A stretch of DNA of 64,000 bases from Pseudoalteromonas sp. GCY (GTDB taxonomy: Bacteria > Pseudomonadota > Gammaproteobacteria > Enterobacterales > Alteromonadaceae): assembly GCF_016695175.1 (NCBI RefSeq), contig NZ_CP068023.1:1813501-1877500 (forward strand), read 5' to 3'. This document shows, piece after piece, positions 1 to 52,654 of the stretch. The notes below the pieces were generated by a model, which worked only from the letters and a program-made list of their open reading frames with translations, searched no databases and had not been told where the DNA came from. Position numbers and translations under genes: made by a program. Numbering within the stretch: the stretch's first letter is position 1; every line of letters begins with the position of its first letter.

Positions 1-1308
1 TATCTCTGTGCGCGCTTCGCTGAGCAATCTTAATGATACAAAGCGTAATACATTGATAATATCTGCTCCACTTAGTGGATATTGCTCTGCAAGTTTGTTT
101 AAGCATACGTTGCTTGACAGGCTAGATTGGTGACAAAGTCCGCTTTGCCAAATTTCCAGTCGCTGTGCAGCCCTTGGTGCTTGAAATTGGACAATCGATT
201 CAAATCGGCGAAAAAACGCGTCGTCGATATTATCTTTATAGTTTGAAGCTAAGATCACCACACCGCTAAAGCTTTCAATACGCTGCAGCAGATAGGCGAC
301 ATTTTGATTAGCAAACTGATCGTTAGAAGAGGTGGTTTTTAAGCGCTTAGTGAAAAGCGCGTCCGCTTCATCAAAGAAAAGGATCCAGTCACGATGCTCT
401 GCAAGGCTAAACAGCTGTTCAAGGTTTTTCTCTGTTTCTCCAATGTACTTTGAGGTGATCAGCGATAAATCGACCTTATAGACTGATTTATCTAGTATTT
501 TTCCAAGTACGCTCGCCGTTAGGGTTTTTCCTGTTCCGGGAGGGCCGTAAAACAGTGCACGGTAACCGGGGCGGAGTTGTTTACCAATTTTCCATTGCGT
601 TTGTAGTGTCTTGCCATATTGAACCCAAGTAATAATTTCGTTTAGCTGATGACGAGTGGTATCTGGTAGCTTTACATCATCCCATTCAAGTGCTGTGTTT
701 ACTTGGGTTGCAGGAAACTGATGACTTGTTTCTGGCCGATATGGCTCTGCAGTAGTGAACATTTGTATAAACTCGGGTTTAAGAACCAGGGGGATGTTTA
801 ATCGTGATATACCCTCAGATTCTCGATGACTGTCCACCATAAGGTTAAGCAATTGGCTGGAGTGGAGCGTTTGAAGGACATCAAACTCCGTGTTGAGATT
901 ATTTCCGTCAAGAATGAATGCCGCCGTGATCCCCGTTGTGAATATCTGCCCTTGAGATTCTTGTATACCAAACTCACTGAAAGGGCGGTTTGTTTGTTCG
1001 TTGATTGACAGGAAAATGTCGAGTACAGGGGCTTTGATAACCGGAACAAATGCTAGAATAATTAATAATCTTTCAATCAGGTTTGGCTTGCTGCGGGTAA
1101 TAAAGTCCGCAAATTGAGAGTCTGAGTTATCTAGCGTAGGTGGCAGTGGAAATTCTTGCTCAGTATTCTCGAGTGACTGTCCAAAGTAATGTGACACACG
1201 ATATTGAATAGCATGCTGCAGCCAGTCGCACTCTTGTTCTACGTCTTTGGCATTTAAAGCCGCTTTGGAAGGAGTTTGAGCTAAAGGCTCAAAGTTAGAT
1301 TGCCACAT
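1..1308 (-). CDS. AAA+ ATPase, eCIS-type (3' end outside window)
   Basis: The reading frame opens at the ATG at 1308 (AAGGAAG just upstream) and stays open to the window edge, so about 436 residues are visible and the C-terminus is missing. A non-catalytic N-terminal region of about 220 residues precedes an AAA+ module: Walker A GPPGTGKT near residue 254, Walker B ILFFDEAD near residue 305, and a later RRFE arginine pair. This layout matches the AAA+ ATPase that accompanies extracellular contractile injection systems (Afp15/Pvc15 type), which is thought to act in particle assembly or cargo loading. That assignment rests on architecture and on the DUF4157 and cargo-like genes beside it. Any eCIS structural genes would lie left of the window and cannot be checked. 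A general AAA+ chaperone is the alternative. Confidence 0.75.
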   Translation of the reverse strand, partial: MWQSNFEPLAQTPSKAALNAKDVEQECDWLQHAIQYRVSHYFGQSLENTEQEFPLPPTLDNSDSQFADFITRSKPNLIERLLIILAFVPVIKAPVLDIFLSINEQTNRPFSEFGIQESQGQIFTTGITAAFILDGNNLNTEFDVLQTLHSSQLLNLMVDSHRESEGISRLNIPLVLKPEFIQMFTTAEPYRPETSHQFPATQVNTALEWDDVKLPDTTRHQLNEIITWVQYGKTLQTQWKIGKQLRPGYRALFYGPPGTGKTLTASVLGKILDKSVYKVDLSLITSKYIGETEKNLEQLFSLAEHRDWILFFDEADALFTKRLKTTSSNDQFANQNVAYLLQRIESFSGVVILASNYKDNIDDAFFRRFESIVQFQAPRAAQRLEIWQSGLCHQSSLSSNVCLNKLAEQYPLSGADIINVLRFVSLRLLSEARTEI

Positions 1309-1451
1309 TTTACTTCCTTATTTTCTAAATAAGCGTTCCACAGTGTAGTTTGTACGGCTGCGAATCTGATTGGCAACTTTAGGGATTATGTTGGTATAAC
1401 AGACTAATTGCTGCAGGTTCTTTTATTTAAGAGGTGGTTGGTTACGTAAAA

Positions 1452-1477
1452 GAGCAGGCGAGTTGGTTATCCTGCTC
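1452..1477 (-). terminator. Rho-independent terminator after the 220-aa gene
   Basis: A 7-bp GC-rich stem (GAGCAGG/CCTGCTC) with a 12-nt loop is followed on the minus strand by TTTTAC. It sits just past the stop codon at 1494 and separates that gene from the AAA+ ATPase. Confidence 0.65.
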
Positions 1478-1493
1478 AGTCTTTACATAAAGA

Positions 1494-2156
1494 TCATTGA
1501 AGTGCCCAGTAAATTGGGTAAGTACCTGAGTTTTCGCCAATCATAATTGTGCGTATTGTGGTGCCACTGTTTGATTCTTCAAATGGAGTATAAGTTGATT
1601 CAAGTACACGGCCGTTAGTTTGCTGCTGTAGCTGCACCTCATCGCCTAAAATACCTATTGAATAACCTGACTGAAATATATAGTGTTCAATTTCTTGTAT
1701 TTGATCAGATTTAGCACCATTGTCATTGTCTTTTAGCTGTAGCCAAACTGTCGTACCGATAGGAATAGAGGCGCTATTTAACAGGTCAAGAACGTTGTTA
1801 GCTATATCAAGAGGATTGTTATTTGTGTTATTGATAGAAGACACATTGAGGATAAACATCGGCATCAATGCCAGCGCGTATCCGTGCTTGTCACTGGTGC
1901 CCGTAATTCTGTCGGTTTCTTGAGCCGTTAGCGCAACATCCCACTCATTGTCTTGTGTGTTAAGGTTGCGCATACAAAAGCTATAACCTTCGCCTTTATA
2001 TTTGTCTGCGACACTTGGCTTCATGGTACCGTTATAAATAAAGCCTTTTGCACCTGGGTGGGCAACACTGGAGTAGGCCAGATTGGGATCTGGCATATTC
2101 GTTACTCTGACATAACTTGGATCGTCTTTTGAACCTAAAGGTTTTTTGGCGTTCAT
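1494..2156 (-). CDS. Hypothetical protein, eCIS/R-body island
   Basis: This 220-residue protein is not recognised. It starts MNAKKPLGSKDDPSYVRV, has no signal peptide or membrane segment, and is rich in Asn, Thr and Gly with alternating hydrophobic residues, which suggests a beta-rich fold. It lies between the GH18 gene and the AAA+ ATPase on the same strand and is followed by a hairpin terminator. The position suggests a cargo or accessory particle protein, but nothing in the sequence assigns a function. Confidence 0.6.
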   Translation of the reverse strand: MNAKKPLGSKDDPSYVRVTNMPDPNLAYSSVAHPGAKGFIYNGTMKPSVADKYKGEGYSFCMRNLNTQDNEWDVALTAQETDRITGTSDKHGYALALMPMFILNVSSINNTNNNPLDIANNVLDLLNSASIPIGTTVWLQLKDNDNGAKSDQIQEIEHYIFQSGYSIGILGDEVQLQQQTNGRVLESTYTPFEESNSGTTIRTIMIGENSGTYPIYWALQ

Positions 2157-2359
2157 AATCTAGTCTCACTTAATGCGTTTAATTAATTCAGGGTGAAAGC
2201 AACCAAATAGATAAATTGGTTGAATTAACTATAAGAGAGGCTGGTTTTACCAACTTGGTAAAAGTTATTTTTCGGTTGGTATATTTTACTTTATCGCTTT
2301 TATTGAGGTAAATGTAGGAAGAAAGGCCGACAAAGGCGGCCAAAGAATAGAAGCAAGAT

Positions 2360-3202
2360 TCAGTTTTTAAGTGCATTTTTGATGGTTTTAATCCAATCGC
2401 CATTTGCGTCACTTGAAAACTGCCAGTTCATAATACCACCCAGCTCAGTGGTGTTTTGAATGGGGTCAATAACCGCTTGAATAATAGTCTCTGCCGGCAT
2501 GTATCCAGAGCCTGCGTCGTGTGCTGTCACAGGGAACCCTGCAATAATTTTCTTCGCAGACATATTCGGTAGCTTGATATAGTCCATATAGGAACTAACG
2601 ATTTGATCTGGGCATGCGCTCCAAGGTGGATTGTTGTAAAACTGAACGTTTAACCAGTCAATATCCTCTCCAACTTGTTCGACTATTTTAAGATAACCTG
2701 CCATGTAACCACCATGCTCTAGGTAAGGAGGTTGCGGGGCGTGGGAAATACAGTAGCGGGGTGAGGGCAGTTGTTTTCTCAGAGACCGTGTTAATGATAC
2801 GAGAAACTGTACGCCGTCATAACTTGCATTCGCGATAAATGCAGCACTATCTTCATAGTCGATATCAATGCCGTCCAGATGATTATTTTTAACAAAGCCC
2901 GCCAAGGAATCAGCCAGCTTGTCTGGATCTTGAGATAACGAGTAATATACGTTGTGATCCATATCGCCACCACCAAATGAGATCAATACTCTTTGCCCAT
3001 TTTGCTGCATGGTTTGTATCGCTTCTATCGTTTGGGCTGTGAAGCTGGTCTCTGTGGCAGCAATTGCACCGCTTAAAATTAGCTTAAACGGATTGTTTGA
3101 AGCCGAAGATAAAAACGCCAAGTTTACTACATCGTAAGGAAGCTCACCGGCATTGGCCAAAGGAATAGCACCTGAATTATAGTAGGTAATGGTTTTAGAC
3201 AT
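2360..3202 (-). CDS. Leaderless GH18 chitinase-like glycoside hydrolase
   Basis: This roughly 280-residue protein has a glycoside hydrolase family 18 barrel. Strand 4 carries DGIDIDYE near residues 107-114, matching the DxxDxDxE signature with its catalytic acid Glu. An early strand reads VVNLAFL, SFGG near residue 70 matches the usual SxGG motif, and MNWQFSSD near the C-terminus supplies the conserved Trp. Family members cleave chitin or related beta-1,4-GlcNAc polymers. There is no signal peptide: the N-terminus is MSKTITYYNSG. Absence of a Sec leader, and a position among eCIS-type genes, suggest delivery by a particle or lysis. AAGGAG favours the second of two adjacent ATGs (3202; the other is 3205). 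Confidence 0.8.
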   Translation of the reverse strand: MSKTITYYNSGAIPLANAGELPYDVVNLAFLSSASNNPFKLILSGAIAATETSFTAQTIEAIQTMQQNGQRVLISFGGGDMDHNVYYSLSQDPDKLADSLAGFVKNNHLDGIDIDYEDSAAFIANASYDGVQFLVSLTRSLRKQLPSPRYCISHAPQPPYLEHGGYMAGYLKIVEQVGEDIDWLNVQFYNNPPWSACPDQIVSSYMDYIKLPNMSAKKIIAGFPVTAHDAGSGYMPAETIIQAVIDPIQNTTELGGIMNWQFSSDANGDWIKTIKNALKN

Positions 3203-3273
3203 CATCGCTCCTTATGAGAAAAAATAATCTGTTTGCGAAAACTAGTTCAGTTTACGGATGTTTGGTATTATAA

Positions 3274-3333
3274 AGGACTACAGGACAAACTCCTGTAATG
3301 GGTGTTAGACCCAGATGCTAGCCGTTGTGAACG
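3274..3333. repeat. Two small inverted repeats downstream of the cargo-like gene
   Basis: Two hairpins lie between the 223-aa gene and the GH18 gene: TACAGGA/TCCTGTA, and GCCGTT/AACGGC with a 3-nt loop. Neither has a strong T-run. They may act as weak terminators or RNA-stability elements for the minus-strand gene ending at 3366. Confidence 0.35.
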
Positions 3334-3365
3334 GCAACGTTTGAACTTATTTGATACATTCCCCT

Positions 3366-4037
3366 TTAGAGTCTAGGTTTCATAAGAGAGGCCAAAAATT
3401 TCGATGCTAAAGATGGATTTGAACGACCCGCAGAATCAATGATCAACTTAAAAATTTCCTCTTCATTTTTTTCTGGAAATCTAGATTTATACTTTTCCAT
3501 TAATTGGTTCATCGTCAACCCTTCCTTTTTCATAAAAACAGATAACATTCTTCCTAGAGGCGTAATTTTCTCTCGCGTATCTTCCATTTGTCTGTTTCGT
3601 ACTTCTATAGCTCCTTCTGTAACAATTTGGTGAAGATTTGGATCCACCTCTTCTCCTTTTTGTTTTGCCTGTTCAGCGTCGTTGAAAATCTCACTTGCCA
3701 CTACTGGAATATTTTTTACCTTGCTTGTGTAGTTCTGTTGTCTCACATTACTATCGTAGCGCAACATGTATAGCAATGCAGCCGTGGATATAGCACCTAA
3801 CACCGGCAAGAGACCCATGCGTTGAATTGGCTGTGATAAGTTTGCCTTCTGAGTTGCTTCGTTAGCGAGTAACAGCTCTTGAGAACTATAATTTTCCAAC
3901 TCTTTCACCTTTTTTTGTTCAACAGCGTTTCGTCGATTATCCGCAAACTCATGCTTAATATGGATTTTATTCTGAGCAACTGAATTAACTGCTAGTCTAT
4001 TTTTATTTTCTTTCGATTTCTCAACTTGTGTATACAT
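3366..4037 (-). CDS. Putative eCIS cargo protein with DNRR...PIQRM leader
   Basis: The function of this 223-residue protein is unknown. Its N-terminal third resembles the leader seen on many proteins encoded beside DUF4157/eCIS loci (typically FVDNRPEA...QRKLQE...PIQRM): here FADNRRNAVEQKKVKELEN is followed by QPIQRM near residue 72. A hydrophobic stretch (LLPVLGAISTAALLYML) comes next and could be one membrane segment. The C-terminal half is charged and helical, ending SLASKFLASLMKPRL. The leader similarity is my recognition, not a search. The start is fixed by ATGTATACACA, shared exactly with the next gene upstream (start 4670), with AGAGGG before it. Confidence 0.65.
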   Translation of the reverse strand: MYTQVEKSKENKNRLAVNSVAQNKIHIKHEFADNRRNAVEQKKVKELENYSSQELLLANEATQKANLSQPIQRMGLLPVLGAISTAALLYMLRYDSNVRQQNYTSKVKNIPVVASEIFNDAEQAKQKGEEVDPNLHQIVTEGAIEVRNRQMEDTREKITPLGRMLSVFMKKEGLTMNQLMEKYKSRFPEKNEEEIFKLIIDSAGRSNPSLASKFLASLMKPRL

Positions 4038-4172
4038 ATCTTAAACCCTCTTAATTTGTATATGGCATTATCACAGCCGCGCTATCGCTAAGTTATTAGA
4101 ATTACAGCGACGTAGTTATATGAGATTCTAGGTAGTGCTCTATATTTAGTTGGTTCGACTCATCTGAAAGCG

Positions 4173-4670
4173 CTACCTTCTAAGTGAGCTTCCAACAATA
4201 TATTTTTCCCTACCGTCTTCAGGGCCCCCTATATAAGTACTCATCATTTCATTGATTGCGGCTTGCATTAGTACCTTTGGCTCGCCATCACCAGGGCCTT
4301 TGTCTTGCACAGCATTTTTCATATTTCTTAACATCTCAGGCCAGTTACCACTGGCTAAGCGACTGTATTGCTTAGTTAGATCCTCGATTGCTTTATCTAT
4401 CTTTTGTCTATAGGCAAGGCGTTCAGCCTCTCTAGCTCGTTGCAGTTTCTTTTGCTCATAAAGATAAAATTCAGCGTCGTTATCTGCGCCAGTGTCAGGC
4501 CCAAAGTTCATTTTCTGTAATGTACTAGGAATATTATTAGTGGGCTTAGGAGTGAATACTCTTTTTAATTTACCGGGCTGCTGAAACCTAAAGCAGCCAG
4601 TATTTGAAGTACTGATATTTGATGACACTTTTTGGTCTCGTTTTAGGGATTGAGCTAGGTGTGTATACAT
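4173..4670 (-). CDS. Hypothetical protein, putative cargo (MYT leader)
   Basis: This 165-residue protein is not recognised. It begins MYTHLAQSLKRDQK, matching the MYTQ start of its downstream neighbour, and the DNA around both start codons is nearly identical. The middle (about residues 65-105) is a charged helix, probably a coiled coil, rich in Lys, Arg, Glu and Gln. The C-terminal part contains DKGPGDGEP and GGPEDGREKY. There is no signal peptide. Start context and position in a DUF4157 island suggest a second cargo or leader-bearing protein, possibly a toxin-immunity or effector-chaperone pair with its neighbour; this is inference. AAGGA lies upstream of the start. Confidence 0.6.
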   Translation of the reverse strand: MYTHLAQSLKRDQKVSSNISTSNTGCFRFQQPGKLKRVFTPKPTNNIPSTLQKMNFGPDTGADNDAEFYLYEQKKLQRAREAERLAYRQKIDKAIEDLTKQYSRLASGNWPEMLRNMKNAVQDKGPGDGEPKVLMQAAINEMMSTYIGGPEDGREKYIVGSSLRR

Positions 4671-4849
4671 ATCTTATTCCTTATAAATTAGGTCTTAACA
4701 TTTAATCTGAAGCCTTGATTATCGTTAATGCAAACATCGATGTATTATCAGTGGCCATGGCGGTTATCAATTTCATTTACATAGGTATCGAACTTGCCTA
4801 ATGAAATAGGTGAACTGCTTAACCGGCATTTAGAGGGTCACTGGAGTAT

Positions 4850-5269
4850 CTACTCAATTTTACCTAAGCGCTGTGCCAATTCTCCCCAGTCCGTTGCTTG
4901 CTGCTCCAGAGTTGGGTCGTCATTTACAGCTATGCCATTTACCTCTGTGGTGGGCTTTACTATCCCCAGCGCTTGTTGAACAACATGACCAAGCTCGTGG
5001 GGAAGGTGTTTCTCTTGACCTGGGGCCAAGTAAATATCCTTACCCTGAGCATATGCATGGGCTTGTACTCTTGAAGGCTTTGACGAGTTGTAGTGCACTC
5101 GCACATTGGCTAAATTAACGCCGGTGAGCTTTTCCATGCCCCGTCTGAGGCGTATTGGTAAAGCGCAGTTCTGAAGAGGAGCGTTTTTCGCTTTTCGCTG
5201 ACTTGCAGGACTCTGCCTTATCGTTCCGGTAGTGTGATGCTGTCTGGTCTTGAGTTGATAAAATGTCAT
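4850..5269 (-). CDS. DUF4157 (eCIS core domain) protein
   Basis: The conserved part covers about residues 40-139. It has LRRGMEKLTGVNLANVRVHY, then HAYAQGKDIYLAPG, then HELGHVVQQ (the HExxH metal-binding motif), and finally a DPTLEQQAT element that supplies the usual third acidic position. DUF4157 domains occur in proteins linked to extracellular contractile injection systems and polymorphic toxins. Here the domain is almost the whole protein (139 aa), with no toxin domain attached. A longer frame opens at 5674 but overlaps the Ala-rich gene and crosses a strong terminator at 5396-5422, so the ATG at 5269 (MTFYQLKTRQ) is preferred. I see no strong ribosome-binding site, so the exact start is uncertain. 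Confidence 0.75.
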   Translation of the reverse strand: MTFYQLKTRQHHTTGTIRQSPASQRKAKNAPLQNCALPIRLRRGMEKLTGVNLANVRVHYNSSKPSRVQAHAYAQGKDIYLAPGQEKHLPHELGHVVQQALGIVKPTTEVNGIAVNDDPTLEQQATDWGELAQRLGKIE

Positions 5270-5395
5270 CGTGTTGTTTCGTGTTTGTTGGATACTTTTA
5301 CTATAGGCATGGTATAGCGGTAACGATTGGTAAAAAGTCTGGAGTCGTTGGTATTTATTCGTAAGGTTACTGCAAATTGAAAGAAGGTATGCATG

Positions 5396-5422
5396 AAAAA
5401 TACCCGACTGAGCCGGGTATTT
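5396..5422 (-). terminator. Terminator of the R-body operon
   Basis: A perfect 9-bp stem, AAATACCCG/CGGGTATTT with a 7-nt loop, is followed on the minus strand by further T residues. It lies directly after the stop codon of the Ala-rich gene and separates the reb operon from the DUF4157 gene. Confidence 0.8.
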
Positions 5423-5429
5423 GTGACTT

Positions 5430-5687
5430 TTATTCAGTAGCTTCAACAGCTCGGGTTGCTTGTTGCTCTGCTTCATCTGGGGTTGAGGTGGCAGGGGCAT
5501 CAAACGCTTGCTGATAGACACTCTGATCTGCTGCGACGACGGCGTTGTTCGCGATATTTTCAGCCTCATAAGGCGTAGCCGTAGCGTAGCCTGTGGACTG
5601 AGCTGCCGTAGCGACCTCAGCTTGTGATACTGCTTGCATTGCTTGTTGTTCTGCATTGAGAACGGATTGTTCATTTTGAGTGGTCAT
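5430..5687 (-). CDS. Small acidic Ala/Gln-rich protein at the end of the reb operon
   Basis: This 85-residue acidic protein is rich in Ala, Gln, Glu, Val and Thr. It contains repeated short elements of the form EAEQQAxxAVxxAE (near residues 15-25 and 70-82), so it has an internal imperfect repeat. No signal peptide or known domain is seen. AAGGATATTCC lies upstream of the ATG. It is the last gene before a strong terminator and follows the HNH gene by 27 bases. Its low-complexity helical makeup resembles that of the Reb proteins, so it could be an R-body subunit or assembly factor, but it lacks the RebB signature. Confidence 0.6.
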   Translation of the reverse strand: MTTQNEQSVLNAEQQAMQAVSQAEVATAAQSTGYATATPYEAENIANNAVVAADQSVYQQAFDAPATSTPDEAEQQATRAVEATE

Positions 5688-5714
5688 GATGGAATATCCT
5701 TACTAATGGTTAAA

Positions 5715-7124
5715 TTATGCACTGTGTAGTGCTTCGAATGGGCCTTCAACCCAAACATCGTTATGAGTAAACAAATTGATGAGCTCTAGCGGCCGCGAGT
5801 CAGCTAGTTCAGATAAAGAAGTTTCCCAAATATTGCGTTGGGAGCGCACTTTGATGAGCTTATGCTTGTCCTGTTTCCAGTTTACTGGCAGAAATACACA
5901 TCTTTCTTTGGCCTTTTGACCGTAGAGTCTATCGTTGGCAGAGAGAAAAACTAAGTTTCGTTTGTGGTTATCCGCAAGGTTAGACTCTTCCACGCAATAG
6001 CGTAATGACGCTCGAAACCAGTTTGGAAATGGCAAACTGGATGGCTGGTTTTGGTGAGTCGTGGTATTGTCTGTGGTTGCTTGAGGACTCTGTTGATTAT
6101 GCCAAGTGTGTAGTGCATCTATAGCCAAACTTCGGTATTGCAAAAGCGGGAGTGAGTCAATAAAGGCTGGCAAATCGTCATTTTTACTTAACTTAAAGCG
6201 TTCATAAGCAAAATGTAATTGGCCAATTGCGTTCAGACGTGAAATAACCAGCTCTGGGCGGTTTAAACCAAGTATTTCAATCGTAGTTTGACCTTTGGTT
6301 AATTGTATTGCGCTATCCTTGTCTAATGACTGAAGCCATCTCGTAAACGCAGGCGATTCCATCAAGTCGTGTGACTCTTGAAGTAATTCGGGCTGTGACC
6401 AAACAAGCTGCTCGGCTTCATTGTGACTGATAGATTTGCTGTCCATCAAAAAAGTAGACAAAACATCAAAGGCATAGGCTCGACCTGATTGAGGGTCAAA
6501 GCGGACAAATTGTCTTGGGTCTTCTAGGTAAGGGCAGACTAGTAAGGGCTGCTCTTGGTCGATATTAATCAGTGGCGCACGTTCGCCAACAAGTGGAAAT
6601 TGACCACCTTTATATTGCTCGTGACAAGCATTACAGACAAAAAGTAGGTTGTTTTGATCATATGCCAATGAAAAGTACGGCGAGCAGGTCGCCACTACGT
6701 CTAAATGTGTTGAAACCGGTCTTTCCAGTAACTCAACAGGCCTGAAGTGGCCAACTTCGCCGGAGTTTGTCGCTAATAAATAGCTTTCGCAATAGGCACA
6801 GCAGCCATTACTGAGTTGTTGCAAGTGAGCTTTCAAATGATCGGATGCAAATAGCGCTGTATCAAAAGCGGCATAGTTAAACCCCACATTAACCAAGTCT
6901 TCTGTTAAGCCTGTCAGCCTGAGCGTGATAAATACTAGGTTATTTACTAAGTCAGGAGCGTAGCCCTCGCTTACTAGCTGCTTTCTATCTTCAATTGTCA
7001 GCGTATGATATTTAGGTGCGTCTACCAGGCGCGCCATGAGTGCTTGCATCTGTTTATTTGCTGCTGCAATTTTTACGTCTTCGTCTGGTAACCAGGCTAT
7101 AGGTTTACAATCTATTTGGATCAT
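5715..7124 (-). CDS. HNH endonuclease, PtuB/TIGR02646-like
   Basis: The N-terminal half of this 469-residue protein has a zinc-bound HNH fold: CAYCESY near residues 99-105, GEVGHFRPVE carrying the catalytic-type His near residue 117, and NLLFVCNACHEQYKGGQFPL near residues 143-162. This arrangement is that of the PtuB-like HNH nucleases (TIGR02646), some of which are effectors of the Septu and retron Ec78 defence systems. The C-terminal 250 residues are not recognised. No PtuA-like ATPase partner is adjacent; instead the gene sits inside the reb operon, 26 bases after the coiled-coil gene. It could be a DNA-damaging toxin released with R-bodies, or a domesticated defence effector. The family call is good; the role is inferred. 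Confidence 0.75.
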   Translation of the reverse strand: MIQIDCKPIAWLPDEDVKIAAANKQMQALMARLVDAPKYHTLTIEDRKQLVSEGYAPDLVNNLVFITLRLTGLTEDLVNVGFNYAAFDTALFASDHLKAHLQQLSNGCCAYCESYLLATNSGEVGHFRPVELLERPVSTHLDVVATCSPYFSLAYDQNNLLFVCNACHEQYKGGQFPLVGERAPLINIDQEQPLLVCPYLEDPRQFVRFDPQSGRAYAFDVLSTFLMDSKSISHNEAEQLVWSQPELLQESHDLMESPAFTRWLQSLDKDSAIQLTKGQTTIEILGLNRPELVISRLNAIGQLHFAYERFKLSKNDDLPAFIDSLPLLQYRSLAIDALHTWHNQQSPQATTDNTTTHQNQPSSLPFPNWFRASLRYCVEESNLADNHKRNLVFLSANDRLYGQKAKERCVFLPVNWKQDKHKLIKVRSQRNIWETSLSELADSRPLELINLFTHNDVWVEGPFEALHSA

Positions 7125-7150
7125 TGTGGTCAGGCTCCCTGCAACTTGTT

Positions 7151-7618
7151 TTATTCGCCTTGCGTGTCAGCACTGCGCTGCATTACATCATGTTGAAAGA
7201 CTTGATTTTGATGCATTAGCTGCTTTTCCATGTTTTTTAGCGTTTCTTCCATCGCTTGTTGTGCGGCCTCAGCACTTTGGCGAGCTGCGACTTCCTGCTC
7301 CGTATATACTTGCTCTATCTGTGCTTGCTGGTCCTCTAATTGTGTTACTTGCGCTTGCAGTAATGTATCTTGGTAGGGCGTTTCGTGAGCGTCAGATTGG
7401 TTTATTTGAGTCTCACTCTCGAGCGCATTATGAATGCTGGCGAGATGTTGACGAGACTGTTCAATTAGCTGTGAAGATTGCTGTAATGACATATCTATAG
7501 TGTGTTGTGCGCGATTAAGCATGGTATCAATGTCGGCTAAAATGCTATTCATTTGTTTCGGCATAACGGCTTGAGAGAGTTCACCAAGCGCTGTAACCTT
7601 TTGATTTTTGGTATTCAT
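7151..7618 (-). CDS. Coiled-coil protein of the reb operon
   Basis: This 155-residue protein is Gln/Glu/Ala-rich. Almost its whole length (about 25-145) has heptad-like helical character, including QVTQLEDQQAQIEQVY and EEVAARQ-like runs typical of a coiled coil. It has no signal peptide or transmembrane segment and matches no family I know. It lies 15 bases after the 335-aa gene and 26 before the HNH gene, so it should be co-transcribed with the R-body genes. A scaffold, chaperone or assembly role is plausible but unproven. Confidence 0.6.
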   Translation of the reverse strand: MNTKNQKVTALGELSQAVMPKQMNSILADIDTMLNRAQHTIDMSLQQSSQLIEQSRQHLASIHNALESETQINQSDAHETPYQDTLLQAQVTQLEDQQAQIEQVYTEQEVAARQSAEAAQQAMEETLKNMEKQLMHQNQVFQHDVMQRSADTQGE

Positions 7619-7633
7619 TGTTCAGTCCTCTTA

Positions 7634-8641
7634 TTATGCAACCAGCGGCCAGTGATTTTGCACACTCAGACACCCTTGGCTATCAACATCAAGCAACGCT
7701 TCGCTGTGATATAGGTCATATAAATAGTGCCGGCACTGGCCGGCCTGACAGACATAGCTGTCTTTTGCTAATGAGTTGATTAGCGTATGTTGAAGCGTTT
7801 CAAGATAGTCATTTGCAGCTTGCACTAAATCGCCCTTACCTAGGTCTATGTTAAGCACGATATTAAGTAAGCCTGCGCTGAAACTGCTAAAGCCCAGATA
7901 TTTTCCACTTTCATGCCATTGCTTAATCGCATTGTGTAGATCAATAGCTTGAAGTTCGTAGGTGACCACAGGAGAATCTAAGTTGGCATTAACCACCGGA
8001 GAGAGGGTAGTAATTGCGTCATTTAGCGCACTAATAGGACTTGGTGAGCGCTTTTTCCACTCAAGGTAAATACATAAATATCGAGCAAATTCACTTAGAT
8101 TTTGTGCTTGCTGAGTTGCCCATTGGCACGCTGGGATAACGGTTTGATTTGATAGTTCATAGTAACGCTCACAATAACAAATAACATGGTATAAGTTGAG
8201 TTGATCCTTAAATGAGGCGCTCCAACCCAGAGCATGGTAACTCAAGTTATAACGTCGATAAAACAGTGCAATTTTGTTCAGAATCGTACTATCTAACAGA
8301 CGGTATTTGGTTAATAGATCAGCTAAAATTGCTTTGCCTTTTTCAGAGTCTCGATTGCTCAAGGTCGCGAGGTCTCTGAGATCATTAGTAGTCAACTCGA
8401 GTAGTTTTTTCACATCGATTGAAATGGGAATATGATGTAAGTAGATCAACGTTGAATTCATCAATCCCAAGTAAAGCTGCTCGATAAATTGCGCTTCTGA
8501 CGAAAAGCGCATTATCTCGCTCTGTTGTATGAGGGCGTTGACACTCTCTTTTCCCTGATTTAAAAATTGGATCAAGGTTTGCGTTTTGTCGGAAAATTGC
8601 GCCAACTGTTCAATTTCTGTGTTATTCACTACGATCGTCAT
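7634..8641 (-). CDS. Hypothetical 335-aa protein of the reb operon
   Basis: No domain is recognised. The protein starts MTIVVNNTEIEQLAQFSDKT and appears all-helical, with many Leu, Gln, Asn and Tyr residues, no signal peptide and no membrane span. Cys residues cluster near the middle and towards the C-terminus (QAGQCRHYLYDLYHSEALLD). The gene lies 39 bases after the sixth reb gene and 15 before the coiled-coil gene, tight enough for one transcript. Its size and cytosolic character would fit an assembly or control protein, but the sequence does not establish that. Confidence 0.6.
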   Translation of the reverse strand: MTIVVNNTEIEQLAQFSDKTQTLIQFLNQGKESVNALIQQSEIMRFSSEAQFIEQLYLGLMNSTLIYLHHIPISIDVKKLLELTTNDLRDLATLSNRDSEKGKAILADLLTKYRLLDSTILNKIALFYRRYNLSYHALGWSASFKDQLNLYHVICYCERYYELSNQTVIPACQWATQQAQNLSEFARYLCIYLEWKKRSPSPISALNDAITTLSPVVNANLDSPVVTYELQAIDLHNAIKQWHESGKYLGFSSFSAGLLNIVLNIDLGKGDLVQAANDYLETLQHTLINSLAKDSYVCQAGQCRHYLYDLYHSEALLDVDSQGCLSVQNHWPLVA

Positions 8642-8680
8642 GTTTGCCTCCCGTGCCAGCGTCAGTGACGTGAGCCCCCA

Positions 8681-9040
8681 TTAGCTTCCACCACTTGGAA
8701 AATTATTGAGTAGATCACTGGCAGAACTACCGACATCGCCAAAGTTTTTCGTACCATTTTCAACCATCTTGTTAGCCGCTTCGATGATACTGTTGTATTC
8801 TTCGACCTTACCAGTCGCCAGCATTTGTGAAATCGCAACCCCCATTGCGGTAGTCGCCATGGTATTGATATTTCTTAGGTTGTCGGTTGCATCTTGAATT
8901 GCAATTGCCGTTGATTGAGAAACTGACTGATAAGCCTTACCGGCACCAGAGAGTTTATTTAGCTCGCCGCTTAAGCTGGCATTTTTGATGATATCAAGCG
9001 TCGCTTGTGTTGATGGCCCGACATTTGTTAACTCATTCAT
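8681..9040 (-). CDS. RebB-family R-body protein (divergent, sixth copy)
   Basis: This 119-residue member of the R-body protein family starts MNELTNVGPSTQATLDIIKN. The central segment (about residues 40-85: VSQSTAIAIQDATDNLRN, then TMATTAMGVAISQMLATGK) follows the RebB pattern of alternating small residues and a late AMG/AxT block. It differs from the shorter copies by a longer Gly/Ser C-terminal tail (GDVGSSASDLLNNFPSGGS). RebB-type proteins polymerise into coiled ribbons that unroll on a trigger such as a pH drop. It is the last Reb-like gene before the non-Reb part of the operon. Confidence 0.65.
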   Translation of the reverse strand: MNELTNVGPSTQATLDIIKNASLSGELNKLSGAGKAYQSVSQSTAIAIQDATDNLRNINTMATTAMGVAISQMLATGKVEEYNSIIEAANKMVENGTKNFGDVGSSASDLLNNFPSGGS

Positions 9041-9081
9041 ATGCTTTGCCTCGGTTAATTTAAGTTATGTTGGGTTTACCT

Positions 9082-9417
9082 CTAGGTGCTTTTTTTGCTA
9101 TCAGGGTCGAGGTATTGGTGCAGGAGTTTTTGTACTACCTCTTCAATTTTGCTTAGATCCAGTTGTTCTTCAGGCGTTATGGGTTTTTCTGGTTTGGGCG
9201 GTGATTGCTGTAGCATTTTTGCACAGCTCGCCGCCGCAGCAGCAGAAGCTGAAGTTTGAGCATTTTGCTGTGCAGTGACGGCGTTATACATCGACATCCC
9301 CATGGTTTCGGTTGCCGCAATATTGAGCATGCCCATTGATTGCATTGGAGCAGAGCCCGTTAATAGGGTATTAACTTGATTCACTGAATCTGAGATTTGG
9401 TCGTTTACTGTACTCAT
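9082..9417 (-). CDS. RebB-family R-body protein (fifth copy)
   Basis: The start at 9417 gives 111 residues beginning MSTVNDQISDSVNQVNTLLT. This is the canonical RebB opening (xxVNxQITDSVxQxNxxxxG), followed by APMQSMGMLNIAATETMGMS. The frame extends upstream to 9480, but that would overlap the previous gene, and AGGAATTAGCAAA sits correctly before 9417. The C-terminal third departs from the family with a Pro/Lys/Glu-rich tail (PPKPEKPITPEEQLDLSK) that may be a lateral interaction or anchoring segment. It should co-assemble with the other Reb subunits. Confidence 0.8.
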   Translation of the reverse strand: MSTVNDQISDSVNQVNTLLTGSAPMQSMGMLNIAATETMGMSMYNAVTAQQNAQTSASAAAAASCAKMLQQSPPKPEKPITPEEQLDLSKIEEVVQKLLHQYLDPDSKKST

Positions 9418-9433
9418 TTTGCTAATTCCTTTC

Positions 9434-9625
9434 TTATCCTGGTTTAACAGAAGCCACGCCAGAGCTGATAATGAGTGCACAGCACTGTGCTACACTCGCA
9501 TTGGATATCATCTGACCTCGAGCTTCGTTCTGCACGGCGTTATCCATCAATAAAGAGATAGAGTTTCCCATTGTGATGGCGGCTACACCGAGCGAAAAAG
9601 TTTGTGCTTCGACAAGGGGTAACAT
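9434..9625 (-). CDS. Short RebB-like protein (fourth copy)
   Basis: With a start at 9625 (GGAG eight bases upstream) this is a 63-residue protein, MLPLVEAQTFSLGVAAITMG onwards. It keeps the core of the Reb pattern (AITMGNSISLLMDNAVQNEA, then an SNASV/QCCAL segment) but lacks the usual VNSQITDSV opening. It lies 16 bases ahead of the next reb gene. It may be a reduced subunit or a capping or regulatory member. Two adjacent Cys residues near the C-terminus are unlike the other copies. Confidence 0.6.
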   Translation of the reverse strand: MLPLVEAQTFSLGVAAITMGNSISLLMDNAVQNEARGQMISNASVAQCCALIISSGVASVKPG

Positions 9626-9706
9626 GGTATTTCTCCAATTTAGCAGCACTTAAGTCTTGGTGAGTAAAGTCGTACTGATGTTGGAGCCATCAGTACGACT
9701 TAGCAC

Positions 9707-9973
9707 TTAACGGTAGACTTTAGTGATGCCTTCCGCCGTAGTTGCCGTATTGATACTCATTAGGGTATCTACGCCTTGCACCAATGCGGCTTGAGCAGTC
9801 ACATTATTATTTTGCTGTCCAGTTGTTGCATTGTGTGCAGCGTTTGAGAGTGCTTGGCTAGTAGCAATCATAAAGTTACCTGTTGCCACAGCAGGTGCGT
9901 CACCGAGTACTTTCGTATTCACTTGTGAGACTGAGTCAGTGATCTGACTGTTTACAGCTGTTGGAAATGCCAT
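9707..9973 (-). CDS. RebB-family R-body protein (third copy)
   Basis: This 88-residue protein has the clear RebB layout: MAFPTAVNSQITDSVSQVNT at the N-terminus, VLGDAPAVATGNFMIATSQA in the middle, an NAAHNATTGQQ block, and MSINTATTAEGITKVYR at the end. It matches the next two upstream copies residue for residue over its first 15 residues. These proteins form the ribbon of R-bodies (refractile bodies), first described in Caedibacter endosymbionts of Paramecium. The ribosome-binding site is AAGGAAG. The divergent middle block implies subunits with distinct positions in the ribbon. Confidence 0.85.
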   Translation of the reverse strand: MAFPTAVNSQITDSVSQVNTKVLGDAPAVATGNFMIATSQALSNAAHNATTGQQNNNVTAQAALVQGVDTLMSINTATTAEGITKVYR

Positions 9974-10044
9974 AACTATCTTCCTTTTAAAGTAGTAAAT
10001 GTCTAGGCTTTAAAGCCCGTTAGTTTGTGACTGAACCGAGTACG

Positions 10045-10311
10045 TTATGCAAAAATCTTACTTGTCGCGATGCCAGTCGTTGCAGTGTCAATGGAGTAAA
10101 GTAAATTTACGCCCATTGTTGTTACTGCTTGCGCAGTAATATTTGCCTGTTGTTGTGCGGCCGTTGCGTTGTGAGCCGCGTTCGCCAATGCCTGAGAAGT
10201 TGCCTGAAAGAGGTTTCCCATAGCGATAGAAGGCGCATCGCCTAGCACCTGTACATTGGCTTGTGTAACAGAGTCTGTAATTTGACTATTTACAGCGGTT
10301 GGAAAAGCCAT
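10045..10311 (-). CDS. RebB-family R-body protein (second copy)
   Basis: This 88-residue copy begins MAFPTAVNSQITDSVTQANV and continues QVLGDAPSIAMGNLFQATSQ, ALANAAHNATAAQQQ and LLYSIDTATTGIATSKIFA. It is very close to the first copy across the whole length, so one is a recent duplicate of the other. This is a classic RebB sequence, and R-body ribbon formation is the expected role. AAGGATAAC precedes the ATG. A 138-base gap separates it from the first copy, long enough for mRNA processing or an extra promoter, although I cannot identify one. Confidence 0.88.
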   Translation of the reverse strand: MAFPTAVNSQITDSVTQANVQVLGDAPSIAMGNLFQATSQALANAAHNATAAQQQANITAQAVTTMGVNLLYSIDTATTGIATSKIFA

Positions 10312-10449
10312 AGTGTTATCCTTATTGTCGTTAACAAGTTCAGCCTAAATATCGTTAGCTGTATTTGTAGGTATCTCACATTCCCAGATAAGCGTCTTCG
10401 TTGAGTCGCTGCTGTGCGCGATGTTGAACAAGTATCGGGGAGCCGAGAA

Positions 10450-10746
10450 TTAACCTAATCCAGCAACCGGCTGTTTTTGTGGTTGAAGAATACTTTTTGT
10501 TGCAATACCTGTGGTTGCGGTGTCAATAGAATATAAAGTAGTCACCCCCATCGTTGTTGCCGCTTGCGCTGTCATTGCAGCTTGTTGTTGAGCTGATGTC
10601 GCATTGTGCGCCGCGTTAGCTAATGCCTGAGAGGTAGCTTGAAATAAGTTACCCATAGACATCGCTGGAGCGTCGCCTAATACCTTTACGTTTGCCTGAG
10701 TGACCGAGTCGGTAATTTGATCGTTTACTGCTGTTGGAAATGCCAT
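10450..10746 (-). CDS. RebB-family R-body protein (first copy, promoter-proximal)
   Basis: This 98-residue protein starts MAFPTAVNDQITDSVTQANV and is followed by KVLGDAPAMSMGNLFQATSQ and a YSIDTATTGIATKS block. It equals the second copy plus a 10-residue Pro/Gln-containing tail (LQPQKQPVAGLG). It is the first gene of the reb run and has the best ribosome-binding site (AAGGTGG). The promoter should lie in the 300 bases upstream, which also separate it from the AAA/AraC regulator. The family assignment is firm; that R-bodies are actually made is inferred. Confidence 0.88.
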   Translation of the reverse strand: MAFPTAVNDQITDSVTQANVKVLGDAPAMSMGNLFQATSQALANAAHNATSAQQQAAMTAQAATTMGVTTLYSIDTATTGIATKSILQPQKQPVAGLG

Positions 10747-11046
10747 AATTCCACCTTTTTAGCTTTAAGTTTGACGAATAAAAAATATGAGTGGTGCTTA
10801 GGTCTAACAAGCTAGATGGAGCTTCCTAAACACTGAGGTTAGTATAGGAAACGCAGGAGGGTTAGAATTGGCAGTACTTCGCATAATTGTTGGTATAACT
10901 CAGGAACTACTTGGTAGATTTATCTGAATCACCAGAGGTGAAATACCAAAAATTGAATCTGGTCGCTAAGAAATATTCTAACCATAGCTATAGATAACTA
11001 AGTGCTGAACACGAGAGGGGCATTCAGCACACGGTTGTACCGTTAT
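10747..11046 (-). promoter_or_regulatory. Intergenic control region of the reb operon
   Basis: This 300-base gap between the AraC-type regulator and the first reb gene probably holds the reb promoter. It contains a small inverted repeat TCACC-AGA-GGTGA (10929-10941) and a GTGCTGAA/TTCAGCAC hairpin just past the regulator's stop codon that may end its transcript. I find no convincing -35/-10 pair or sigma54 box on the minus strand, which would fit a promoter that needs an activator. Confidence 0.4.
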
Positions 11047-12267
11047 TCAGTGTTTTGTACGGTGATCTCGATAGGCACCGGGGCTGACGCCAACGACAGA
11101 CTTAAACTTTCTAACAAAAAAGCTCAGATCGGAGAAGCCGACATCGTCACATACCTCAGTCACTTGACTATAAGGGTCTTCACGCAAAAGCGTCATTGCT
11201 GTCTTGATCCTTATCCGCAGCAAAGTTTGTTTAAATGACTGTCCAACATAACGTTTGAATAAGAACGAGAGATGAGAAGGGCTGACGCACGCATAACTGG
11301 CGACCTCGCTTAGGCTCAGTGGCTTCTTAAAGTTGTCATCAATATATTGCAGTGCTCTTGCTAAAGCGGGATGAGGTTTATTGACAGGCTTTAGCTGTGA
11401 TAACGGAGTAAAGTCGGCTCCATCAAGATTCTCTGAAGGGGTATAACTGTGTTCATCATCGCAGGCTATCAGTGTTTGCATGGCTTGGGTGAAATCGCTT
11501 TCAGCTTGTATTAGTGGGATAAGGTTACCCTTAGTTGGTGCGGGTTTATTTTCCATTGCGGGGAATAGAGTCAACAGAGTCTGTTTAGTGATTTCAGGTT
11601 GCTCACATAAGAACGTCAGTTTGTCTAAACAACGTTTGAGCTGTTTTACGTTATGTGGCCAATCATAACTGGTTAAGACTTCTAGCGCAGGTCCTTGAAA
11701 TTGCAGTTTGGCGAGATGTTTACAAGTATGTTTGTAGTGGTTTATTAAGGCAATGATGTCTTCTTTACGGTTGTAAAGAGGAGGTATGGGTAGCTCAAGA
11801 CAATGATAATGCAACCAACTCAAAAAGGAGTCGGACTGCATGTGTGTGTCTGCAGAGGTTTGTTTTTCCGCGCTAGTTGAGGTGATTAATCGTGGCGCGG
11901 GAGACTGCGGGGAAAGGGTGAGCCAGTAGTCTTTGATTGACTCGGCCTGCACTTGAGTCAGTGCGTCGATATTTTTGAGGTAAATAGTACCGCTTTGAGC
12001 TCGGTTGACAAGCTCTTCCAATAGGGTTGCTGCGCATTGACCTTGCCAATGGTTTACACACGATACAATCATATCTTCAGAATGCGATTTACTCAGCTCA
12101 TGAATATGGCAAGCGGCTAAATGCTTCCCAGAACCGGGTTGACCAACAATATGTATGGGTAAATCACATTGTGCTAAATGCTGAATTTGCTGTTTCAGTT
12201 TGAAAAGTACATCACTACTGCCAATCCAAGGTTGTGCTGAAGGTGTTAATTTTACGAGTGTGGACAT
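11047..12267 (-). CDS. Regulator: degenerate NtrC-type AAA+ domain fused to AraC HTH
   Basis: This 406-residue regulator is read just before the reb genes. Residues 15-235 form an NtrC-like AAA+ domain with Walker A GQPGSGKH near residue 42. The expected Walker B acidic pair is replaced (GTIYLKNIDAL), and there is no GAFTGA loop, so it should not drive sigma54. Residues 300-406 are an AraC-type double HTH: ARALQYIDDNFKKPLSLSEV, then SYACVSPSHLSFLFKRYVG, then FSDLSFFVRKFKSVVGVSP. The domain order is unusual, because sigma54 activators normally end in a Fis HTH. Position makes it the likely activator of the R-body operon. AAGGAAAC precedes the ATG. Confidence 0.8.
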   Translation of the reverse strand: MSTLVKLTPSAQPWIGSSDVLFKLKQQIQHLAQCDLPIHIVGQPGSGKHLAACHIHELSKSHSEDMIVSCVNHWQGQCAATLLEELVNRAQSGTIYLKNIDALTQVQAESIKDYWLTLSPQSPAPRLITSTSAEKQTSADTHMQSDSFLSWLHYHCLELPIPPLYNRKEDIIALINHYKHTCKHLAKLQFQGPALEVLTSYDWPHNVKQLKRCLDKLTFLCEQPEITKQTLLTLFPAMENKPAPTKGNLIPLIQAESDFTQAMQTLIACDDEHSYTPSENLDGADFTPLSQLKPVNKPHPALARALQYIDDNFKKPLSLSEVASYACVSPSHLSFLFKRYVGQSFKQTLLRIRIKTAMTLLREDPYSQVTEVCDDVGFSDLSFFVRKFKSVVGVSPGAYRDHRTKH

Positions 12268-12296
12268 GGTGTTTCCTTATTTCTCATGTTGCAGAA

Positions 12297-12331
12297 AACA
12301 TGCCATTCAAGGTTCATTTGAATGGCATGTT
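12297..12331 (-). terminator. Terminator between the two reb regulators
   Basis: A perfect 14-bp inverted repeat (12297-12310 with 12318-12331, 7-nt loop) is followed on the minus strand by TTCTGC; the stem itself ends in TT, giving a short T-run. It lies between the stop of the HTH/ATPase regulator and the start of the AAA/AraC regulator. Confidence 0.65.
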
Positions 12332-12376
12332 ATGGGGTCAAGGAAACGATATGGATATTTTGACTCGGATATTGGC

Positions 12377-13784
12377 TCAGATACGGGTCACTTGGTTTTG
12401 TGTATTCGATTGATGGTGTTTATACCAATCTAGTTCTAAATCTTTTGCGTGACTTCTCAGAGACTCCCATACGAGAGGGTGCACAAAACTGTAGTGTTCA
12501 GCGTCTTGGGTTATCAATCCACTGCTCAACATTTTGTGTAATACACACAGGGGAGCACGAATTTTTCTATGTTCATTAAATTGGTGAAGTTGTTTCGTAT
12601 CGAAGTGTTGCCCAATTCGCGCTGCAAACTTAAGAGTATTTACAACTTCACATGGCATCGAGTTGAGGCAGTGTTGAGTAAGTTGCTGTAGGGTTTCAGG
12701 AAGTTCTGACTGGGGATGGGTGGCACAAAGTAGTTGAATTAAAAATAATGGGTTACCACATGCCCGTTTTAAGGCAATAGCTGTTCTATGTTGATGTTTG
12801 CACGGAAGCATATCTCGGCTCAATAATGTGTGATGTGCTAGTTGCTGCATCGAACTGATATCTAGTGGCTTTAGATAGATAATATGTGCAGAGGAGAGCC
12901 ATTTGGGAGGATGAGTAAAAGCATTTTTTTTCTGGGCAGACAGGATAAATAAAATACCAAAATGACATTGGACTTGTGTAAGTATGCTCAAAAAGTACCT
13001 GCTTTGCTCGCTTAGAGTGTGTGCATCGTCTATCAAGATCGCTTGCACTTTTTTGTGATCGAGATATTCCAGTAGATCACTGACAACCGTTTTATCAAGC
13101 AACCTTAAGCGCTCGTCTGAAAATTGACGAAGCGTCTGCTTGTGCGCAAGGCTTAAAGACAAGTCCGCCCATTGACGCATACGAATTGCGCTCAGCGGTG
13201 TGCTAGAAACGAGGTCTATTTGATGGCCTATCTCTACTTCACTATGTGCCTTAACAAGTAATAATGAGCGAACAAAATTGGCAACAAAAAAGTGAGGGTT
13301 GTTGTGATTTAAGCAGGAGTTAGTGCTAAATAGGAGGTAGTTTTTCTCCGCTCTTTTTAAGTGGCAAATAAAGGCATTGAGTAACGCGCTTTTACCTATT
13401 CCTGTCATACCCTGTAGTAAGATGGTTTGAGCGCTAGATAACGCCACCGCTCTACTAAAAATGATATGTAATTGATTAAGCTCCCATTCTCTTCCATATA
13501 ATGGAGTGGGCTCGTCGTTTAACAAATAGCTATATAGCCATAAAGGAGATTCAGCTTGATCGATTAATGTATCAATACTGACTTGGAAATACTTTGCTAA
13601 ATTTTGAATAGTTCTGCAGAGTACTCGATTACCAGATTCTGCTCGTTTTATTGTGGAAACCGATACTGGGAAGCGTTGGTTTGTACAGTTTTCAGCAAGC
13701 TTCTCTCTACTTAGGGCTTTTTTTTCTCAGCATTAGTAACGTTGTTTTATTTACCGCAATTCTACCTAGGTTAGGTGTAGTCAT
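12377..13784 (-). pseudogene. XRE-HTH + AAA ATPase regulator, frameshifted at an A8 tract
   Basis: From the ATG at 13784 (AAGGA eight bases upstream) the frame reads MTTPNLGRIAVNKTTLLMLR and runs into eight A residues (13718-13725). Past that tract the HTH continues only in another frame: ALSREKLAENC, VSVSTIKRAESG, TIQNLAKYFQVSIDTLI. That frame then runs open through the ATPase: LLQGMTGIGKSALL (Walker A) and AILIDDAHTL (Walker B). One A fewer would give an intact protein of about 468 residues. The in-frame TTG at 13525 lacks a ribosome-binding site and would remove the HTH. So the gene is broken, phase-variable at the A8 tract, rescued by slippage, or affected by a sequencing error. It lies upstream of the AraC-type regulator and the reb genes. 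No TPR or LuxR tail follows the ATPase. Confidence 0.8.
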
Positions 13785-52642: not shown

Positions 52643-52654
52643 ATAATATGATGT

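Follow-up and report, generated by a model that had tools for sequence, protein, structure and literature searches.

R-bodies are elastic protein ribbons that rupture membranes. According to the parts of a 2013 survey drawn on here (PMC3583457), they do not kill by themselves, and the toxin they deliver was still unidentified at that time. Its Group 1 R-body loci, represented by those on Azospirillum and Eleftheria plasmids, consist of reb genes followed by an HP1.4-sized gene, HP1.3-, HP1.2- and HP1.1-like genes and a short coil-like gene, as does the island described below. The reb cluster of P. aeruginosa PA14 with RapA has its own regulators (RcgA and FecI2) and an R-body-associated non-Reb protein, and it contributes to host ribosome cleavage; the island resembles it as an R-body locus with dedicated regulators and differs in its cargo module, which is not among the parts described in the passages of that report used here (PMC8322103). 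With the cargo-loading module of eCIS, which are injection machines resembling phage tails, the island shares a homologous AAA ATPase, DUF4157 followed by cargo ORFs, and an N-terminal leader on some cargo. Pvc15 carries tandem AAA domains according to the cited portion of PMC11495950, whereas the island ATPase (457 aa) gave a single Pfam AAA match.

The window analysed is a 64,000-nucleotide stretch of the genome of the marine bacterium Pseudoalteromonas sp. GCY (G000). The island runs on one strand through the reb genes, an HNH gene, DUF4157, a cargo slot, GH18, a DUF1906-like gene, an eCIS-type AAA+ ATPase, a seventh RebB gene and three PatG-domain genes. It overshoots the left edge of the window by 3.7 kb and ends at C2:1809820 (window position −3680). 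The ORF listing and Pfam searches recovered, on the minus strand, every gene named in the first-pass annotation. All island genes given below lie on this strand.

Regulators and R-body core

The first gene of the island (12377..13525) encodes a STAND-type AAA_16 ATPase (Pfam AAA_16, 3.8e-13), a probable regulator found at the equivalent position in all eight island genomes. The next (11047..12267) encodes a sigma54-AAA/AraC hybrid transcription regulator (HTH_18, 2.3e-20; Sigma54_activ_2, 6.9e-13). By their Pfam matches, these are the two regulators that had been proposed beforehand.

Three RebB homologues follow at 10450..10746, 10045..10311 and 9707..9973 (PF11747, 1.8e-30, 5.5e-31 and 4.3e-27, respectively), then a short Reb homologue (9434..9649, 7.3e-08), HP1.4-like from size and order alone, an HP1.3-like Reb homologue (9082..9420, 7.1e-17) and a distant, HP1.2-like one (8681..9040, 0.0035). 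Five of the six RebB-like genes claimed for the window thus scored above the Pfam cut-off; the sixth (8681..9040) reached only E = 0.0035, yet has relatives in the plasmid R-body loci. In blastp searches against these loci, its product matched Azospirillum and Eleftheria proteins with 2e-32 and 1e-33, and that of 9082..9420 with 4e-14 and 2e-15. Outside the window, between the ATPase and PatG genes, RebB 7 (C2:1812624-1812896) gave a strong match and joins the five above the cut-off in the RebB-family cluster. The product of 7634..8641 (p335; AlphaFold2 model with a pLDDT of 87) shared 25% identity (E = 8e-18) with a 359-aa Azospirillum protein encoded at the matching place and was assigned as an HP1.1-type R-body partner. 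The next gene (7151..7618) encodes a 155-aa Gln/Ala-rich, coil-like protein present at the matching position in other islands. The HP1.1-, HP1.2- and HP1.3-like neighbours were thus placed in order by blastp to both plasmid loci and HP1.4 by size and order; the plasmid genes themselves were equated with the HP proteins by size and order, as given in the cited part of the survey text (PMC3583457). Judged from its genes, the reb cluster belongs with the Group 1 R-body loci of Raymann et al. (2013).

The plasmid loci continue into other tails (a 1707-aa protein; NUDIX, Rv2525c-GH-like and 583-aa proteins), in which Pfam and blastp searches found no match for DUF4157, AAA or PatG. No tail is present in G836.

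Predicted cargo-handling genes and the hypervariable slot

The tail of the island begins with a 469-aa HNH nuclease-like protein (5715..7124), whose gene is present in nine islands. Its NCBIfam matches to PtuB (1.2e-08; 35.1 bits, cut-off 150) and the retron HNH family (TIGR02646, 2e-07; 31.2 bits, cut-off 52) were both below the curated cut-offs, and the Pfam search gave none. A conserved 85-aa protein (5430..5687) shares 49-64% identity with homologues in five relatives. The stand-alone DUF4157/eCIS_core protein (4850..5269; PF13699, 5.5e-12) has 139 aa, a HELGH motif and a score of 46 bits against a cut-off of 22. A 274-aa ORF was rejected as the DUF4157 gene; its initial part overlaps the conserved 85-aa gene, so the 139-aa version is likely the real one. 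Beyond the slot lie a GH18 enzyme (2360..3205; PF00704, 1.2e-18, 68 bits; motif DGIDIDYE), in which no signal peptide was seen by eye, and p220 (1494..2156), whose relatives are named DUF1906 or GH25-domain proteins and which has a counterpart at the matching position in other islands. The ATPase (1..1308, with its last 65 bases left of the window; PF00004, 1.3e-28, 100 bits) is 36-38% identical over nearly its full length to the AAA proteins of the eCIS loci in G094 and G062, and its second and fourth matches on plasmids sit within annotated eCIS operons. The DUF4157, GH18 and eCIS-type ATPase assignments of the first-pass annotation were all borne out. The three PatG-domain genes extend from RebB 7 to the left end. 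Within the genus, PatG_D was found in the eight island genomes and one relic, and in 0 of the remaining 99 genomes.

The hypervariable cargo slot (3216..4873) could not be aligned to that of G045 and is entirely different there, whereas the flanking DNA on either side is about 97% identical (96.6-96.9% at the nucleotide level). In the host, the slot encodes two cargo candidates, p165 (4173..4670), starting MYTH, and p223 (3366..4037), with an MYTQ leader. An ORF of an eCIS locus begins with a sequence similar to residues 1-69 of p223 (E = 2e-7, 15 sequences compared), and the leaders of three slot proteins from relatives match it as well. The leader proposed for both candidates is thus corroborated for p223; that of p165 matches no other cargo leader apart from MY. 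Among the four slot proteins and the eCIS-locus protein, similarity is confined to the leader in 8 of 10 pairs. The 14 cargo ORFs of the island genomes are mostly unrelated to one another, with two homologous along their whole length. An MY start, a pattern picked after viewing the slot proteins, occurs in 11 of the 14 and in 5 of 186 background ORFs; two of the other three have MY at an inner start and one begins MAFYQ. This count leaves aside conserved neighbours (DUF4157, 83-85-aa and 172-174-aa proteins, an HNH-end copy and GH18), ORFs below 80 aa, one G093 ORF across an N run and mobile-element pieces, one of which (in G009) starts MY. Pfam searches of nine of the 14 slot proteins (with the G032 GH18 alongside), together with p165 and p223, revealed one resembling a toxin deaminase below the cut-off (25.6 versus 27 bits) and two others with insignificant matches (E = 0.022 and 0.039).

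Polymorphic toxin cassettes likewise combine a constant start with an exchanged remainder and displaced duplicate modules, one of which is found in the island of G032. Where such cassettes use one long carrier protein, the island has small individual ORFs bearing a short leader.

Recurrence of the island and eCIS genes in the same genomes

The island order recurs, with some exceptions, in seven further Pseudoalteromonas genomes, giving eight with the host, and strand and order are maintained at 36-100% protein identity. The arrangement is therefore not due to chance. In Alteromonadaceae bacterium M269, the order matches along the stretch analysed (L075) as far as it reaches, with no GH18 match in it. 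These comparisons show that a predicted Group 1 R-body locus and a cargo module homologous to eCIS parts are joined as one conserved unit, as first proposed. The first-pass annotation had named two findings that would speak against it, an order that does not recur and a lack of eCIS structural genes to the left. The order does recur, so that half of its refutation test fails; as to the other half, inspection by eye of the ORFs of at least 110 aa over 39.5 kb to the left of the window brought up no recognisable eCIS structural gene.

The island occurs in 8 of 33 Reb-positive genomes of the genus. Its lack in the other 25, together with the Azospirillum and Eleftheria tails without the module and the missing tail of G836, weighs against R-body delivery. 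On a Photobacterium GJ3 plasmid, reb, PatG, DUF4157, an MY-start ORF and AAA are present in a different arrangement, in a stretch that includes a phage tail collar gene and gave no matches to p335, HNH, GH18 or p220. RebB matches were also obtained in 16 genomes of other genera (one of them below the cut-off); six of these contain DUF4157, in no case near reb. Within the genus, 14 of 27 DUF4157 genes are near Pvc16_N, nine in the island and four elsewhere.

Unlike an eCIS, the island has no sheath or gp25, and profile searches for the T4_gp19 inner tube and the Pvc16_N/DUF4255 terminator gave no matches in G000, G045 and G093. In the other five of the eight island genomes, tube and terminator are present elsewhere. 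The two devices first pictured are thus not both found in the host: the second is absent, and sheath and gp25 occur solely in a P2-like tail locus (C2:1.17 Mb), with a further gp25 in a T6SS locus (C2:2.03 Mb). Because three island genomes have neither tube nor terminator, the release of eCIS particles by R-bodies is not the general function of the island; a better fit is that R-bodies deliver cargo of the eCIS style.

Possible functions of the island

We give about even chances to the island being an R-body toxin-delivery operon, in which a module of leader, DUF4157 and ATPase, derived from eCIS, deals with interchangeable toxins; loading is the step that we infer. More tentatively, R-bodies may be the membrane-breaking vehicle for leader-tagged exchangeable toxins selected by the eCIS-derived ATPase, DUF4157 and the island-specific PatG and RebB 7 proteins, which would make this a so far undescribed system. 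The two regulators would turn the unit on. ATPase and DUF4157, modelled on Pvc15 acting on eCIS cargo, would recognise the leader and hand cargo to the R-body or keep it stable beside it, and RebB 7 and the PatG-domain proteins may dock the ATPase to the ribbon. After uptake of the cell by a eukaryotic grazer, the R-body would extend, rupture the cell and vacuole membranes and free the cargo, with HNH, GH18 and the DUF1906-like protein as putative constant effectors and the slot proteins as variable ones. We know of no lumen in R-bodies for packing, which counts against cargo loading.

It is unlikely, but deserves consideration, that the island tail stores cargo for a contractile machine encoded at another place in the genome (an eCIS, or the T6SS or tailocin of G000), with reb aiding release by breaking the producer or captor. 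The eCIS tube and terminator in five of eight island genomes point this way, as does the more frequent than random co-occurrence of Reb and eCIS in the genus (eCIS in 17 of 33 genomes with Reb and in 8 of 75 without it, counts not corrected for kinship). In G026, G032 and G033, with an eCIS elsewhere, the island supplies the genome's sole DUF4157 genes. Both observations are compatible with a true eCIS link, which may therefore still hold in these three genomes. In G000, which possesses a T6SS and a P2-like tail locus, the T6SS-type gp25 lies about 0.2 Mb from the island; T6SS effectors may be unlinked, and DUF4157 is known in T6SS effectors, as stated in the cited part of PMC11297309. Against a cargo store, three of the eight genomes that keep the island have neither tube nor terminator of an eCIS, and the eCIS of G094 and G009 have their own AAA and DUF4157, with separate copies kept in the island. 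In addition, the eCIS-type AAA is, to our knowledge, not part of T6SS or tailocins.

That unrelated modules simply travel together as a weapons island appears improbable. Flanking ORFs, judged by eye, place the island in at least four chromosomal contexts, relics are present in G007 and G052, and some slots hold transposase-like and RT-like pieces. However, order and strand are maintained across the eight genomes, RebB 7 sits between the ATPase and PatG genes, and a rearranged subset reappears in Photobacterium. An anti-phage or self-killing system, with the STAND-type ATPase as sensor, a PtuB-like HNH protein and R-bodies as membrane-breaking suicide device, is very improbable, since the PtuB/retron HNH matches are far under the curated cut-offs and the variable slot, DUF4157, GH18 and eCIS-type ATPase are left unexplained.

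The identity of the R-body toxin is the outstanding question of the field. The island supplies toxin candidates, a leader open to testing with a reporter, and two genomes that differ naturally in the cargo slot. It also suggests that the cargo-handling parts of eCIS may function independently of an eCIS particle. If an eCIS-derived module indeed serves R-bodies, the vehicle of this cargo machinery is exchangeable, be it a phage tail or an R-body ribbon.

Layout of the island and its R-body half

The island of Pseudoalteromonas sp. GCY (G000; 5.47 Mb, two contigs, completeness 100; window at G000:C2:1813501-1877500) begins at window position 13525 and runs leftwards on the minus strand. It starts with a STAND ATPase gene, a sigma54-AAA/AraC regulator and six reb-type genes, followed by genes for p335 (335 aa), a 155-aa coil-like protein and an HNH protein. 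Next come an 85-aa gene, DUF4157 (one copy in the genome), two genes in a hypervariable cargo slot (encoding p223 and p165), GH18, p220 and an AAA ATPase gene whose last 65 bases fall beyond the window edge. Approximately 0.54 kb further on is a seventh RebB gene (1.6e-30), and then come three genes whose products contain PatG_D and PatG_C domains, reaching C2:1809820 (PatG_C below the cut-off in the 264-aa product). The adjoining ORFs on both sides are on the opposite strand. The window also holds a tandem pair of tRNA-Val (gac) genes (52566-52731).

The 119-aa, 112-aa and 335-aa proteins of the reb half matched proteins in the same places of plasmid reb loci from Azospirillum brasilense (E = 2e-32, 4e-14 and 8e-18, respectively) and Eleftheria terrae. 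By size and order they fit HP1.1-HP1.4 of the Group 1 loci in the consulted part of Raymann et al. (PMC3583457), which makes this half an ordinary R-body locus of Group 1. The tail, i.e. the island beyond the reb half, does not appear in the Group 1 account in that part of the source, and a 2026 survey (PMC13430693, in the section consulted) states that it omitted non-Reb neighbours. For the AlphaFold2 model of p335 (pLDDT 87) no trustworthy fold match was found. Two other Group 1 loci end differently, L101 (19511-24634) in a 1707-aa protein and L102 (19168-22687) in NUDIX, Rv2525c-GH-like and 583-aa proteins, which are possibly their own cargo.

Conservation within and beyond the genus

Among 108 Pseudoalteromonas genomes, one per species, 33 contained RebB, and in eight, including GCY, a DUF4157 gene was located 5-8 kb from the reb cluster. 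A tblastn search with the island proteins gave the same gene order in all eight, the slot genes excepted; those relatives of the island that carry a name belong to Pseudoalteromonas. Further deviations concerned G032, with a duplicated DUF4157 and HNH end and a different GH18 ORF where the window's GH18 had no match, and to the 85-aa gene, unlisted for G045 and G094 because an overlapping match took its place. The island occupies at least four chromosomal contexts, as judged by eye from flanking ORFs. A ninth island, in Alteromonadaceae bacterium M269, keeps the order from STAND to AAA, where its stretch ends, with no GH18 match in the available stretch. A 172-174-aa gene ahead of GH18 is kept in seven of the nine islands and missing from G000 and G045.

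PatG_D was found in nine of the 108 genomes, namely the eight island genomes (three copies each) and G007; 24 of the 25 Reb-positive genomes without the island gave no match. The reb loci examined, from ten of these 25 (L064-L069, L085-L087, L110-L111), all lacked the tail. G007 (L110/L111) carries a relic, in which STAND, AraC and the last PatG gene remain and the middle is lost, and G052 (L087) a second one, with the regulators retained and the interior lost. In G046, a single reb gene (L067, 9664-9963) is flanked by the amidohydrolase and NDH-like neighbours that also border the window's island; this is an empty or decayed island site. A second reb type (L064, L065 and L066 in G041, G014 and G024) has 7-9 RebB matches, a different AraC-type regulator (27-30% identity) and no DUF4157 or AAA match.

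Photobacterium is, in part, a third lineage with island components. A 37-kb stretch of plasmid pGJ3-1 (Photobacterium sp. GJ3) carries reb genes together with an AraC-type regulator, an AAA gene, two genes with PatG domains, an ORF that has MY at codon 8, and DUF4157, whose core shares 67% identity with its G033 counterpart. The set is ordered differently, on both strands and with a transposase-like ORF in between, and no match to STAND, p335, HNH, GH18 or p220 was obtained in the stretch. Because a gene for a phage tail collar is present as well, a connection to tails of some kind is possible; no sheath, tube or baseplate genes were recognised among its ORFs. In this Photobacterium GJ3 locus (L113, 19571-22787), an 857-aa protein and the phage tail collar protein are encoded beside the PatG-domain genes. 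The PatG search of plasmids gave five records including Photobacterium; of the other four, the three that were inspected had no RebB annotated nearby, and in two of these three an S8 peptidase adjoins the PatG gene.

Cargo slot and eCIS-type components

Residues 19-445 of the island ATPase align with the AAA proteins of loci for phage-tail-like contractile injection systems (eCIS) in G094 and G062, where a DUF4157 gene follows approximately 0.3 kb after AAA. Island ATPases were 35-38% identical to the eCIS type of 457 aa; for the ATPase of the window, identity to the 650-aa type was 27-29%. In an unrooted tree, a single branch (support 0.994) parted the nine island ATPases from five eCIS ones. 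Among 72,556 plasmids the best ATPase match was that of Photobacterium; the second and fourth (Azospirillum thermophilum, Aureibacter) lie inside annotated eCIS operons, and the third in a record unannotated at that place. DUF4157 occupies 27 places in the genus: 14 within 30 kb of the eCIS terminator Pvc16_N, nine in the island and four elsewhere. According to the sections consulted, the ATPase Pvc15 loads cargo via a 50-70-residue N-terminal signal peptide (PMC11495950), and DUF4157 is a proposed cargo chaperone (PMC11297309). By sequence, the island ATPase and DUF4157 appear to be borrowed eCIS-type cargo parts.

G000 and G045 share 96.6-96.9% identity over 7.7 kb and 10.1 kb flanking the slot, with no alignment across window 3216-4873. 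From the nine islands, 14 slot proteins of at least 80 aa were counted, after conserved neighbours and presumed mobile-element pieces, among others, had been set aside; a simple longest-ORF caller supplied both these and the background ORFs. Eleven of them (13 with inner starts) begin with MY, and so do 5 of the 186 ORFs in the background (for 11, p = 4e-12, the pattern having been picked after these proteins had been viewed). Over its first 80 residues, p223 has 93% identity to a protein of P. maricaloris. Five proteins, namely p223, three slot proteins from other genomes and, from the eCIS locus of G085, an ORF adjoining DUF4157, resemble one another solely within the first 36-109 residues; the likeness holds for 8 of 10 pairs (E values from 2e-7 to 1e-4, set of 15) and shows a common leader. 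The G032 and G093 slot proteins are homologous over their whole length. A leader is only suggested for the others because they share just the first few residues. One of the 11 slot proteins scanned is similar to the XOO_2897 deaminase family, with a score slightly below the cut-off; the others had no significant Pfam match.

Relation to eCIS and proposed function

The eCIS search covered tube, terminator, sheath and gp25. Neither the tube T4_gp19 nor Pvc16_N was matched in G000, G045 and G093; both were present in the other five island genomes. In G000, the sole sheath gene and one gp25 gene lie in what we take, from the surrounding ORFs, to be a P2-like tail locus (L077, G000:C2:1157001-1177000), and the other gp25 gene in a presumed T6SS operon (L100, G000:C2:2018001-2038000). 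No capsid genes were noticed in the 20 kb that make up L077, whose tail genes are followed by an ORF presumably resembling LodA and a FAD protein; it is perhaps an R-type tailocin.

The conserved unit consists of R-body genes and cargo parts otherwise found with eCIS, and it is kept in genomes without detected eCIS tube and terminator. Against a clean break from eCIS, Pvc16_N was commoner in island genomes (5/8 versus 20/100, p = 0.016) and in Reb-positive genomes of the genus (17/33 versus 8/75, p = 1e-5), both uncorrected for kinship, and in the eCIS-bearing G026, G032 and G033 every DUF4157 match belongs to the island.

R-bodies, which unroll, are believed to pierce the phagosomal membrane; alone they are insufficient for killing (PMC3583457, part consulted). 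The Pseudomonas aeruginosa reb cluster promotes host ribosome cleavage; nuclease delivery by R-bodies is suggested there as unproved, the nuclease also being active from Escherichia coli without R-bodies (PMC13189344, part consulted). For the island, we infer that cargo may travel with the R-body: the ATPase would stabilise leader-tagged proteins and transfer them to the ribbon or the ribbon core. Since PatG_D is island-specific in the genus, RebB 7 and the PatG proteins are candidates for the link between ATPase and R-body.
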